A stretch of DNA of 47,041 nucleotides, taken from contig CAMDEE010000008.1 of NCBI GenBank assembly GCA_945895375.1, positions 1 to 47,041 of the forward strand, read 5' to 3'. Position numbers and translations under genes: made by a program. Shown one piece after another: positions 19,669 through 23,234 of this stretch (position 1 is its first letter; the number at the start of each line of letters is the position of its first letter). Source of the stretch: Auritidibacter sp. Marseille-P8566 (GTDB lineage Bacteria > Actinomycetota > Actinomycetes > Actinomycetales > Microbacteriaceae). A model generated the notes under the pieces. It did no database searches. It had not been told where the DNA came from and saw only the letters and a program-made list of their open reading frames with translations.

Positions 19669-20235
19669 ATGACCATAAGACCCATCTGCATCACTGGAAA
19701 TCCAGTCCTCCATACGAAGGCTCTAGAAGTCACAGTCTTTGACGAAGGCCTAAGAACCTTGGTCCAGGACATGTATGAAACCATGGATGAAGCCCCTGGA
19801 GTGGGGCTTGCAGCCCCTCAGATAGGCGTTAACTTGAGAGTCTTTGTCTATGACTGGGACGCCGAAGACGGCTCAGAGCAGCGCGGCGTGGTTATCAACC
19901 CAACCCTAGAGATATCAGAGATACCTGAAGGTGAACCTGATTGGGAAGCTGAATCTGAAGGCTGCCTGAGCGTTCCTGGCGAAAGATTCCCTCTAAAACG
20001 CGCTGACCGAGCGACCCTTAGGGGTGTCGATCTAGAGCAGAACCCAGTTCACATTGAAGCAACTGGCTGGTTTGCCAGAATCTTTCAGCACGAGTTCGAC
20101 CACTTAGAGGGAATTCTTTACGTGGACCGATTGATTGAGAAATACAACGCAGAAGCTAAAGAGATTATCCAAGAACGTGGTTGGGGTAAAGACGATATCT
20201 CTTGGCTGCCGGGTGAAGAAAAGCTAGAGGGCTAG
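19669..20235 (+). CDS. def: Peptide deformylase
   Basis: A 188-residue metalloenzyme that removes the N-formyl group from nascent proteins at the ribosome exit. All three motifs are present: GVGLAAPQIG (44-53), EGCLS with metal ligand Cys99, and QHEFDHL with ligands His141 and His145 and catalytic Glu142. The start is ATG 19669; the Shine-Dalgarno sequence is poor (TTAGGG). Its last 12 bp overlap the 3' end of the convergent regulator gene, leaving no room for a terminator. Confidence 0.97.
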   Translation: MTIRPICITGNPVLHTKALEVTVFDEGLRTLVQDMYETMDEAPGVGLAAPQIGVNLRVFVYDWDAEDGSEQRGVVINPTLEISEIPEGEPDWEAESEGCLSVPGERFPLKRADRATLRGVDLEQNPVHIEATGWFARIFQHEFDHLEGILYVDRLIEKYNAEAKEIIQERGWGKDDISWLPGEEKLEG

Positions 20236-20895
20236 CGCTCCAAGTCGATACATACGTAACAGCAATTGCGACCGGGTAAACAACATAAGAAGTGTCTGCA
20301 CCTTAGTCAGAGTGTTGTTCACTCTCACTATTGATAAACCCGCAACTGTCGAAATTTCAGGGAGGCTTTTTAGTTCACAGTATGCCTTAACAACTTTGGT
20401 TTCGCTCTTACTTAAAGTGTCAAGAGCAATTGCAGCACTTTGAAATCCTTCTTGGCTAATAGTTAGATCTCCAAGTTTCGGAAGGATTTCTCTGATTGCA
20501 AAATCAACATGAACATCAGCACAAGCTCCAACTTTTTCAATCAAGGAATCAAAACCTTCGCTTACAAACACACAGTCCACAGCGCCTGCTTCAATTGCAG
20601 TAAGTCTTAGTTGAGTTTCATGAAACTGGCTTGAAACCAAAATTCGTCCAACTTTCTCTTGTCGGACAATGGCAAGTGATTGAAGGGCTCTTATGTAATC
20701 AAAGGCCGATTGATTACCGAGCCTTTGCTCGATAATTGCAACATCAAAAGTCACCGCAAGAAAATCCTGTGGTAGTAAACCATAGCCATCAGAATCGAAA
20801 ACGATCTGATTCTCATTTGAAGTCTCTAGAACTGCTCGCTTGGCCGCTCTGATCGTATCCGATCCACCCAATAGAGCGATTCGCAATCCGCTCAA
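20224..20895 (-). CDS. Atypical response regulator: pseudo-receiver plus LuxR-like HTH
   Basis: A 223-residue protein paired with the kinase-like gene upstream; its TTG start directly follows the kinase TAG, with GAGGGG as SD. The C-terminal region from LSKSETKVVKAYCEL to about residue 218 has the spacing of a LuxR/GerE helix-turn-helix, though it is diverged. The N-terminal 120 residues have the receiver layout, but the phospho-acceptor position reads FDVAIIEQRLG, Glu56 in place of Asp (codon GAG). The usual acidic pair after strand 1 is GGS (10-12), and the conserved Lys near strand 5 is missing (FVSEGF). The domain therefore should not be phosphorylated in the normal way; Glu56 could mimic the active state. 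Target genes are unknown. Confidence 0.75.
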   Translation of the reverse strand: MSGLRIALLGGSDTIRAAKRAVLETSNENQIVFDSDGYGLLPQDFLAVTFDVAIIEQRLGNQSAFDYIRALQSLAIVRQEKVGRILVSSQFHETQLRLTAIEAGAVDCVFVSEGFDSLIEKVGACADVHVDFAIREILPKLGDLTISQEGFQSAAIALDTLSKSETKVVKAYCELKSLPEISTVAGLSIVRVNNTLTKVQTLLMLFTRSQLLLRMYRLGALAL

Positions 20896-22149
20896 CTACT
20901 TCCCCTCAACGTAGTTAGAGATTAGCGGGAAAGCAACTGAGACGGTGAAGCCAACTCCAGGCACTCGAACAAAGTCCATAGTTCCCTGATACAGGGAAGC
21001 TCTCTCCTGCATAGCTGTCAGCCCTGCCCCTTCAGGTCTTTCTACTAGTGCCTTCTGATCGTCTTGAACTGAATAGCCGCTGCTGACCTGTTCCTGGGTT
21101 CTACTAGTTTCTTCACCGTTGTCTTTGATGACCACCTGCATGGCATTACCCTGCCACATAAAATCGACGTCAACTTCAGTGCCAACGGGGGTATGTTTTC
21201 TGATGTTGTCTAAAGATTCAAAAACGATGCGATAGATAACCAGATCAGCACCAGTTACTAGCTTGAGTCGTTCACCCTGTTCTTTGAATGTGACACGATA
21301 GCCATACTCACGAAAGGTAACAAACAGATTGTTCAGGTCTCGAAGACCGGGTAGAGCTAGCGCTTTTTCTCTCTGCAAACCAAGTAGGTCACTCAGTCTT
21401 CTAATTTCAGCGTGTGACCTGCGAACTCCTTCAAGTAGATTCTCTAGAAGTCTTGGAGCGACAGATGGATCCGCCTTAGAGGCATAGATACCAGCTTCAG
21501 CTGAAGACAGCGTGGCGCTGACTTGTTCAAGCAAAAGATCATTCACATCTCGCGCGATACCAAAGCGACGATCTTGTTCCGCTAGAGCCAACTGGCCTGA
21601 CACAATCTGTTGAGTCAGTAATGCTTGGTCAAAATCAGTTCCCACGTGTGTAATGCGAGTGTGCAAAAGTCTTCCGATGAACCAAGCATTTGCGTTGAAG
21701 GCAATAATGGCAACAAATCCTGCAATAGCGAGAACTGCCTTAGCCTCATCGGATGGCAGAATAACACCGTAGAGAGTTCCTTGCTCAGGGCTAACGAACA
21801 ACTCCCAGAAATACGCGATTGCGCCAAGCACAATGTTCAGTGAAAAGCCAACCCAACGAGCCTTTGTTGAAGCAAAGGAAGCGAGGATCAAGAGAGTGAC
21901 CGTAATAGAAATCTGTGAAAGCTGTGGCTCAAGACTGAGGAGAGTGGGGATGAAAATTCCGACCGAAAACAGCGCAATCGAAATCATTGGTTTAGCTCTG
22001 GACAGGGCAACTGAAGCGGCCAAAACTATCGATGCTGGAATTGTTTCAACCCCCTGGATCAGAAGATCTAGACCTCCAAATACAAGAAGGCACATGACAG
22101 CAAGGGAACTAGTTGGGAGCCATAACTGGTCGCGAATCCAAAGAAACAT
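20896..22149 (-). CDS. NarL-type sensor histidine kinase homologue lacking the phospho-acceptor His
   Basis: A 417-residue membrane protein with about six hydrophobic segments in residues 10-165, no recognised input domain, then a HisKA_3-like helix pair and an HATPase domain. The H-box reads FGIARDVNDLLLEQVSA (197-213): Asn203 (codon AAT) stands where the family has His in ELHD. The ATP-binding half is better kept: N-box ESLDNIRKH, G1 region KDNGEE (the second Gly is lost), and G2-like EGAGLTAMQERA. It may bind ATP but cannot autophosphorylate at the usual residue. ATG 22149 has AGGAG five bases before it. It is cotranscribed with the atypical regulator that follows and lies downstream of tRNA-Asn. 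Confidence 0.82.
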   Translation of the reverse strand: MFLWIRDQLWLPTSSLAVMCLLVFGGLDLLIQGVETIPASIVLAASVALSRAKPMISIALFSVGIFIPTLLSLEPQLSQISITVTLLILASFASTKARWVGFSLNIVLGAIAYFWELFVSPEQGTLYGVILPSDEAKAVLAIAGFVAIIAFNANAWFIGRLLHTRITHVGTDFDQALLTQQIVSGQLALAEQDRRFGIARDVNDLLLEQVSATLSSAEAGIYASKADPSVAPRLLENLLEGVRRSHAEIRRLSDLLGLQREKALALPGLRDLNNLFVTFREYGYRVTFKEQGERLKLVTGADLVIYRIVFESLDNIRKHTPVGTEVDVDFMWQGNAMQVVIKDNGEETSRTQEQVSSGYSVQDDQKALVERPEGAGLTAMQERASLYQGTMDFVRVPGVGFTVSVAFPLISNYVEGK

Positions 22150-22175
22150 CTGGTCTCCTGAAGGGCTTCATGTAA

Positions 22176-22251
22176 TGGCTCCCCGGCTTGGACTCGAACC
22201 AAGAACCTATCGGTTAACAGCCGATTGCTCTGCCAATTGAGCTACCGAGGA
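22176..22251 (-). tRNA. tRNA-Asn (anticodon GUU)
   Basis: Acceptor TCCTCGG pairs with CCGGGGA (one T-G). The anticodon stem ATCGG/CCGAT encloses CTGTTAA, giving GTT. The T-arm is CTTGG-TTCGAGT-CCAAG, the discriminator is G, and CCA is encoded (22176-22178). Confidence 0.97.
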
Positions 22252-22313
22252 ATGCTGCCTAAGCAACTTTCATACTTTACCAAAAACTTAGGAATTTTTC
22301 TTACCAAGACCAA

Positions 22314-23234
22314 TTAGTAGCCAAGTTCAGGGTCAACTAGGCCCACCCAGTCACCTTGACCCTTGTATGCGGCCAGATTTTCCTTGATACGGACCGAGAA
22401 TAGCCTGACCACCTGAGCATTGGTATCTGCAGTGTGCGGGGTAACAATGACGTTTTGAGCGCTCCAAAGCGGGTGACCATCAGGTAGCGGTTCAGGTTCC
22501 GTGACATCAACCCCAGCTCCTGCAATAAGGCCCTCGTTCAGCGCTTGAACCAGGTCCATCGTGTTCACAACCGCACCTCTGGCAACGTTCACTAGGTATC
22601 CAGTTTCTTTCATCTTCCTAAAGCGTTCCAGATCGAAAAGGTTTCTCGTGCTATCGGTCAGTGAACAGGCAAGAAATACCCAGTCAGCGATTGGAAGATG
22701 AGCATCAAGATCGGCTAGCTGAACTGTTGTTGTTGCTCCTGTCAAGGCTTCAGGCTTGTTTCTGACTACTGTGATGTTGCACCTAAATGGGGTTAGTTGC
22801 TTGATGAGTTCTTCGGTGATGCCGCCCGCCCCAACAATCAAGATGTTGGCGTCATACAAAGAAGCTGCAAACTTTCTTCCCCAGCTAGTTGCTCTGACTC
22901 TTTCAGGAATAACTCGGCCAAGAGCCATAGCTAACATCAGTGCGTGTTCGGCAACTGGTTCACGGTAAGAACCCTTCGCACAAGCAAAGCGAACAGGAGC
23001 ATTTAAGACATTCTGGAAAGCATCCACTCCCGCAAATGGAAGTTGAACAAACTCAAGTTGAGGGTTCTCAGCCAAAGTCTTTTCTAATCCTTTTGGATCA
23101 GAGTAGTCAGTCCAAATCAAAGCCCCAACTGTTTCATCCAATGGTGACAGCACAGAGCCGCTCTCAATCACTGCCTGTTCATAGGCAGGGAAACTCTTAG
23201 GAGCGATAGTTACCTTCTGCTTATCGACACTCAT
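22314..23234 (-). CDS. D-isomer-specific 2-hydroxyacid dehydrogenase
   Basis: A 306-residue NAD(P)-dependent oxidoreductase interconverting a 2-oxoacid and a D-2-hydroxyacid; the substrate is not predictable. The Rossmann loop is VGAGGITEEL, and the catalytic residues are Arg in NVARGA, Glu in DVTEPEPLPDGHPLW and His in TPHTAD. The N-terminal half of the substrate domain is short, as in the glyoxylate/hydroxypyruvate reductase-like subgroup. Its ATG overlaps the dnaG stop by 4 bp (ATGA), so it is translated with dnaG, although no functional link is evident. It is the last gene of the long minus-strand run before tRNA-Asn. Confidence 0.9.
   Translation of the reverse strand: MSVDKQKVTIAPKSFPAYEQAVIESGSVLSPLDETVGALIWTDYSDPKGLEKTLAENPQLEFVQLPFAGVDAFQNVLNAPVRFACAKGSYREPVAEHALMLAMALGRVIPERVRATSWGRKFAASLYDANILIVGAGGITEELIKQLTPFRCNITVVRNKPEALTGATTTVQLADLDAHLPIADWVFLACSLTDSTRNLFDLERFRKMKETGYLVNVARGAVVNTMDLVQALNEGLIAGAGVDVTEPEPLPDGHPLWSAQNVIVTPHTADTNAQVVRLFSVRIKENLAAYKGQGDWVGLVDPELGY

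Follow-up and report, generated by a model that had tools for sequence, protein, structure and literature searches.

A Membrane Pseudo-Histidine Kinase Beside a NarL-Type Pseudo-Response Regulator in Rhodoluna, and Loss of the Phospho-Acceptor Histidine in Related Microbacteriaceae

This study concerns two adjacent genes within a stretch of 47,041 nucleotides (the window; positions are counted from its first letter), which is contig 8 of the 1.43 Mb genome of Auritidibacter sp. Marseille-P8566, a member of the Microbacteriaceae (GenBank assembly GCA_945895375.1, contig CAMDEE010000008.1). Both genes lie on the minus strand, as do all their parts described below. The first (20896..22149), which begins with ATG, encodes a membrane pseudo-histidine kinase of 417 amino acids, recognized from its open reading frame (ORF), scans against protein families, its orthologues, and a phylogenetic tree. 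The second (20224..20895), which begins with TTG, encodes a NarL-type pseudo-response regulator of 223 amino acids, recognized from its ORF, an AlphaFold model, Foldseek searches, and a profile of the regulators of the genus (here Rhodoluna, a freshwater genus). In ordinary pairs of this type, phosphate is relayed from a His in the kinase to an Asp in the regulator. The stop codon of the kinase, TAG, directly abuts the TTG of the regulator. An initial annotation, made from the sequence alone, had pointed to this junction, to the intactness of both frames, and to the replacement of the phospho-acceptor in each protein, and it read all of these correctly.

The kinase begins with six predicted transmembrane helices (residues 11-167; 21649..22119; AlphaFold helices and hydropathy). 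These are followed by a DHp-like two-helix region that carries the H-box (residues 172-263; 21361..21636; placed by AlphaFold with low to moderate confidence there and by a sub-threshold match to HisKA_3) and by a catalytic, ATP-binding domain (residues 269-407; 20929..21345; HATPase_c, alignment, and AlphaFold). A Pfam scan places HATPase_c (PF02518) above its cut-off (37.9 bits vs 26.4, E 2.6e-9) and both HisKA_3 (19.2 bits vs 24, E 0.0019) and DUF7134 (E 0.00036) below theirs; HisKA_3 is matched by 18 of 20 kinases of the genus at E ≤ 0.01, DUF7134 by four of the 20. The H-box reads RDVND, with Asn203 (codon AAT, 21541..21543, from sequence and alignment) where the acceptor His should be, and no His appears by codon or alignment within residues 196-215. 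The N-box Asn315, Asp343, and the G2 box GAGLTAM are retained, the two boxes as the initial annotation had it. The protein thus has the HATPase_c domain, N-box, and G2 box of the HisKA_3 (DesK/NarX) sensor kinases without their acceptor His, which is what is meant by a pseudo-histidine kinase: the kinase fold is retained and the acceptor His is gone.

The regulator consists of a pseudo-receiver domain (about residues 1-125; 20521..20895; AlphaFold pLDDT about 90, with Foldseek matches to NarL-type receivers) and a LuxR-type four-helix helix-turn-helix domain (HTH; about residues 161-217; 20245..20415; AlphaFold helices and the genus profile compared with GerE/DevR structures). The acceptor Asp, acidic pair, and Lys of NarL/LuxR response regulators are all missing. 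Sequence and alignment give GGS at residues 10-12 (20860..20868) in place of the acidic pair and Glu56 (codon GAG, 20728..20730) in place of Asp, and Val111 occupies the column of the Lys, which had already been reported as absent. The Pfam scan places Response_reg below its cut-off (E 0.013), and the same genome has six other receiver matches above it. A receiver fold without its catalytic residues makes this domain a pseudo-receiver.

The AlphaFold model of the regulator (mean pLDDT 88.6) has five strand-helix units, linker helices, and the four-helix HTH, and the best fold matches found by Foldseek are full-length EvgA, LiaR, and NarL-type regulators. The genus profile matches DevR foremost (E 6.6e-22) and also the HTH of GerE (E 3.5e-7), so that model, fold search, and profile agree on the receiver fold and LuxR-type HTH of the NarL/LuxR family. 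The model of the kinase (pLDDT 75, pTM 0.42) has six transmembrane helices, a DHp-like hairpin, and the catalytic domain. Its best match among solved structures is DesK, both by sequence and by fold, and the fold entries include the acceptor mutants H188E and H188V. As modeled, the window pair retains the folds of a DesK/NarL system. The plan is that of DesK-DesR of Bacillus subtilis and of NarX/NarL (a sensor with multiple transmembrane segments, a HisKA_3-type DHp, and HATPase, with a partner made of a receiver and a LuxR HTH), but the window pair differs from both systems in lacking the acceptor His, the Asp, the acidic pair, and the Lys, and, judged from these residues, the known route of phosphotransfer would not be possible in it.

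Of 67 Rhodoluna genomes, 58 contain the kinase (E ≤ 1e-20) and nine are unmatched; among the 22 of good quality it is found in 21. Counts for the genus refer to 56 of the 58 matched genomes, since G371 and G380 (partial) were left out. A 17-residue fragment (L042) was also left out before counting, and the duplicates L031, L033, L034, L035, and L040 were left out of the tree. None of the 56 kinases has His in the acceptor column, which holds Asn in 26, Ser in 17, Thr in 12, and Ala in one. The initial annotation had allowed that close orthologues might carry the His, with only this strain degenerate; decay in a single strain is excluded by these counts. It had also allowed for an alternative acceptor within the H-box, which is excluded in turn, residues 196-215 being free of His in all 39 Rhodoluna rows of the tree alignment. 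Residues of the ATP site are conserved (N315 in 55/56, D343 in 56/56, G345 in 55/56). The regulator lies directly downstream of the kinase on the same strand in all 55 loci where it is found; in the 56th (L196) the contig ends first.

The regulators are less uniform. Lys is missing from the expected column in 55 of 55, and the acceptor column holds Asp in 41, Glu in nine, Gly in three, and Asn and Ala in one each, so that 14 of 55 are without Asp. Asp stands at both positions 10 and 12 in 27 of 55, and GGS in 11. Five of these 11 pair GGS with Glu as in the window (the window itself, L002, L004, L182, and L200), and the other six, including the close relatives L003 and L005, pair it with Asp; the remaining four regulators with Glu (L021, L022, L028, and L189) do not have GGS. 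The replacement of Asp by Glu is thus younger and patchy, and the losses of His and Asp were not simultaneous. The initial annotation spoke of a matching loss in both partners, and this is right insofar as both lack the residues of phosphotransfer; it does not hold for timing, with Asp present in 41 of 55 and the acidic pair in 27. Of the regulator columns that it singled out for comparison with relatives, that of the Lys holds no Lys in any of them, and that of the acceptor keeps its Asp in L003 and L005. On the simplest reading of the alignments, loss of the kinase's His and of the regulator's Lys preceded the diversification of the sampled genus, and the Asp was lost later and more than once.

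The ratio of nonsynonymous to synonymous substitutions (dN/dS), which would lie near 1 in decaying genes, is 0.041 for the kinase (dS 0.29) and 0.018 for the regulator (dS 0.57) between genomes G017 and G149. Comparison of the window with six near relatives gives dS that is infinite or greater than 2 and therefore saturated; the terms against L032 are roughly 0.23/2.6 and 0.29/3.0. Against L002, the regulator has changed faster than the kinase (dN 0.31 vs 0.18). The 30 orthologous frames listed for the genus contain no internal stops. These results support the view that the pair has been retained under selection.

The surroundings of the pair place it in a locus common in the family. Upstream of the kinase by 26 nucleotides lies tRNA-Asn(gtt) (22176..22251, minus strand). 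In 53 of 56 loci of the genus this tRNA precedes the kinase by 16-103 nucleotides in the same orientation; the other three have less than 150 nucleotides of upstream sequence. Downstream, a gene recognized by ORF and synteny and labelled def (19669..20235, plus strand), which by its motifs I take to encode peptide deformylase, converges on the regulator and overlaps its end by 12 nucleotides, and serves as the second anchor of synteny. A profile of the genus kinases matches 249 of 299 genomes of the family, members of the genus included, and the best matches outside the genus are proteins of about 300 amino acids, which I will call KIN. From the matches listed I chose 79 KIN loci by hand (L081-L159). 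Using my own labels, the recurrent order is dgt-dnaG-dhdh-tRNA-Asn-[HK1-RR1]-KIN-[RR2]-[azlC]-def(convergent)-nipa-tRNA-Met, with pieces missing in places, and the window kinase occupies the place of KIN. The convergent def lies downstream in 74 of the 79 loci, a tRNA-Asn of the same orientation precedes KIN in 66 (whether or not HK1-RR1 intervenes), and both are found in 63; some contigs or regions end earlier.

A tree of 150 catalytic regions, from which the His column was excluded, gives the 39 Rhodoluna rows as one clade (support 99) and joins them with KIN (100), apart from the 32 HK1 kinases; the separation of KIN from Rhodoluna has a support of only 77. A lid motif, Y...DD..AL, is present in 37/39 Rhodoluna and 63/79 KIN kinases and in 0/32 of HK1. 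Tree and synteny support the identification of the window kinase as the syntenic orthologue of the Microbacteriaceae KIN. Orthology with HK1 is excluded by the tree, and the N-terminal transmembrane domain of the Rhodoluna kinase matches that of HK1 weakly (hhalign probability 13.9%). In a search across the order (248 genomes, nine candidates scored in each), the best match outside the family reached 170 bits, as compared to 394-400 bits for the KINs of the family there.

Loss of the acceptor His is not confined to Rhodoluna. The KIN column holds His in 49 of 79, with Gln in 17, Gly in five, Asp in three, Leu and Asn in two each, and Phe in one; the total of 30/79 without His is not an unbiased rate, since the loci were hand-chosen and near congeners partly omitted. 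All 32 HK1 kinases, which are neighbors of KIN in many of these genomes, have His (Fisher p 8e-6 against KIN, uncorrected for relatedness). On the tree the state of this column changes 11 times over all rows and 10 times within KIN and Rhodoluna; at least five changes fall on well-supported branches, and five is the safer count, because the tree is of the quick type. A published survey found 56 HisKA_3 domains without His among 16,025, or 0.3% (PMC12632262, in the part consulted), and beside that figure KIN appears as a hotspot of His loss, with the proviso that the two samples are unlike. Some losses may escape surveys based on Pfam, because the H-box of the window kinase itself scores under the HisKA_3 cut-off.

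One clade of 16 KIN rows (L088-L092, L096, L102, L105, L110, L112, L113, L116, L118, L120, L123, and L133) has Gln or Gly for His and no detected receiver gene downstream; this is a second lineage that has apparently lost phosphotransfer, and five near relatives show low dN/dS. Outside the genus, the ten comparisons of five closely related KINs of the Gln type give dN/dS of 0-0.09, and four near pairs of the His type (dN ≤ 0.11) give 0.13-0.22, each set being among the first 15 rows of its list. Medians by NG86 are 0.46 for 992 pairs of KINs with His and 0.39 for 547 pairs without, but they have little meaning, since between GC-rich KINs a large dN goes with a saturated dS and the method becomes unreliable; the values given above come from near pairs only. 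From these few data, the His-less kinases outside the genus give no sign of relaxed selection.

The gene that I call RR2 encodes a single receiver of 129-151 amino acids, without HTH, in which inspection by eye shows the acidic residues, Asp, and Lys all intact. Of the 79 KIN loci, 17 have a detected RR2 downstream of the kinase, and in 16 of these the kinase has His. The exception, L104 (Gly), is alone among the 30 His-less KINs in keeping an intact RR2 behind it, possibly because the loss was recent. Of the 62 KINs with no detected RR2, 29 are without His and 33 with it. The raw counts (16/1 vs 33/29) associate loss of His with absence of RR2 (Fisher p 0.0017); the link does not show in phylogenetically independent pairs (median p 1), of which the five on supported branches are too few for significance. 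Rhodoluna differs from the KIN loci in having a His-less kinase with an adjacent regulator that bears an HTH. Of the Rhodoluna receivers, 24 of 36 score higher with RR2 and 12 with RR1, the near clade scoring poorly with both, and the tree of receivers is built on few columns, with long branches.

The reading to which I incline, on a balance that tips only modestly in its favor, is that the pair is functional and free of phosphotransfer, the membrane pseudo-kinase controlling the DNA-binding pseudo-response regulator by direct contact. The broader proposal, of a genus-wide two-component system without phosphorylation, its dead membrane kinase gating a transcription factor with a dead receiver through binding driven by nucleotide or signal, I hold more tentatively, its chances falling slightly short of even. 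Tree and synteny support a history in which the kinase belongs with the DesK/NarX-like KINs of the tRNA-Asn-def locus, accompanied in some genera by an intact single-domain RR2. The repeated loss of His in the family suggests that, even before the partner changed, the kinase fold had a use that did not require phosphotransfer. According to the same history, the Rhodoluna kinase had lost its His by the time the sampled genus diversified; its neighbor is a full regulator (receiver and LuxR-type HTH) without Lys, whose Asp and acidic pocket then eroded stepwise. In the present pair, the six-helix sensor might determine the shape of the DHp-ATPase module, and ATP, the residues of whose site are kept, might act as a co-ligand; the module might bind or release the regulator through the old kinase-receiver interface, and the regulator might thereby switch between membrane-held and DNA-bound states, or between monomer and dimer. 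Adjacency to the regulator suggests that the pseudo-kinase is part of a signalling pathway. The pair is likely co-transcribed with tRNA-Asn: a consensus scan found no promoter- or terminator-like sites in 22100-22420, weak evidence in that few are expected by chance. Such transcription would tie the dose of the pair to growth.

Several points weigh against this interpretation. For direct contact between kinase and regulator, gene order and ancestry are the sole grounds, and ATP binding by the window kinase is putative. The kinase model is of moderate confidence and falls to a pLDDT of about 50 around residues 171-200. The G1 box reads KDNGEE, its second Gly missing; this is no sign of decay, because the second Gly of the box, which spans residues 343-347, is replaced in 79 of 79 KIN rows, those with His included (by Arg in 74), and mostly by Glu in Rhodoluna. 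(Alignment columns beyond about 350 are offset from the window numbering and were not used; motifs there come from separate readings.) GerE finds no match in the window regulator alone by the Pfam scan, and matches three of 24 regulators of the genus. Most genomes of the genus are incomplete assemblies. Finally, G017 and G149 are the sole congener pair with unsaturated dS, and the window lineage lies outside it. The initial annotation had proposed selection for a phosphorylation-independent module (a putatively ATP-sensing membrane protein with a regulator that would be constitutively shaped) rather than a pair of pseudogenes. Purifying selection in that one pair and conservation across the genus support this in part; what it missed is that His loss recurs across the family.

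The strongest of the competing explanations, though still improbable at something like one chance in five, is that the two proteins are uncoupled, the kinase modulating other kinases or a membrane process and the regulator acting constitutively at a level set by its expression. In its favor, no RR2 was detected behind 29 of the 30 KINs from outside Rhodoluna that lack His, so that such a KIN may be useful without a receiver; there is the precedent of DivL, which acts on CckA (PMC12189002, in part), and possible read-through from tRNA-Asn would fit control by dose. That the two genes are neighbors in all 55 loci of the genus argues instead for joint function.

Somewhat less probable is a module that acts only as a phosphatase, the His-less kinase dephosphorylating a regulator charged by acetyl-phosphate or by another kinase. 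DxxxQ/H is the phosphatase motif of HisKA_3 kinases, and [DE]xxxQ is retained at 204/208 in 44 of 56 kinases of the genus despite the loss of His, as Asp is in 41 of 55 regulators. According to the part of PMC12632262 consulted, the His apparently takes no part in HisKA_3 phosphatase activity, yet HisKA_3 domains are without it less often than HisKA domains, which speaks against a general phosphatase role. The window fits this explanation poorly: the kinase combines D204 with Glu at 208, the regulator, having Glu56 and GGS, offers no Asp to dephosphorylate, and no receiver of the genus has Lys.

Decay of both genes into pseudogenes is very improbable: the stepwise loss of receiver residues and the faster change of the regulator are what one would expect of it, but the stop-free frames, the low dN/dS of the usable pair and of the near Gln-type KINs, the conserved ATP site, and the retention of the pair in small genomes all count against it. 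I give equally little credence to a phosphorelay through a new residue, such as His246, or to Ser/Thr phosphorylation, for although His246 is found in Rhodoluna and in no KIN, it is not universal (Gln in eight, Phe in four, and Tyr in three of 39) and lies outside the H-box, and an acceptor Asp is lacking from the receiver of the window.

If the pair is indeed a functional one that does without phosphotransfer, its nearest parallels are found in separate places. Caulobacter DivL is likewise a kinase fold without a working phospho-acceptor and is integrated in signalling, but it acts on a separate, active kinase, CckA, and the window pseudo-kinase adjoins a single pseudo-response regulator (PMC12189002, in part). 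The window kinase moreover belongs to the HisKA_3 group, the one in which missing His is rarest in the published survey. The regulator resembles the atypical or aspartate-less regulators (BldM/WhiI, ChxR, HP1043, NblR), which combine a receiver fold with a DNA-binding domain and work without phosphorylation (PMC12632262 and PMC4395418, both in part). Those described there are orphans or lie beside a normal kinase (CmrRST), whereas the kinase beside the window regulator is itself dead. The KIN-RR2 locus of other Microbacteriaceae shares genomic position, lid motif, and clade with the window kinase, but its KIN has about 300 amino acids and one transmembrane segment (in eight of ten checked; the other two have two overlapping segments) rather than six, and RR2 is a single intact receiver rather than a receiver with HTH.

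A literature search, covering titles and the beginnings of abstracts of the top matches, found no pair with both partners dead, and the consulted part of PMC12632262 treats pseudo-kinases and pseudo-receivers separately. That 2025 review calls the switching of bacterial pseudo-receivers a mystery, and in its examples, so far as consulted, the kinase partner is either normal or not known; in the present case gene order identifies the likely partner, and it too is dead. MtrAB is the only Rhodoluna two-component system in the consulted part of PMC12422013. The loci described here form a graded series, from His-bearing KIN with intact RR2, through His-less KIN without RR2 and His-less KIN with an Asp-bearing regulator, to the window pair, and the series makes directly testable what a histidine kinase does for its regulator besides phosphorylation.

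Three minor observations may be added. A scan of viral contigs gave 97 pattern matches and no confirmed relative. His246 of the window kinase (21412-21414), in the second DHp helix and outside the H-box, is present in 24 of 39 Rhodoluna rows and 0 of 79 KIN rows. Lastly, a gene at L202:514-1476 (minus strand) encodes a 320-amino-acid membrane protein with a coiled, sensor-like region, in which no ATPase motifs were seen by eye (no family search was made), and it adjoins a His-bearing kinase and regulator in the same genome.

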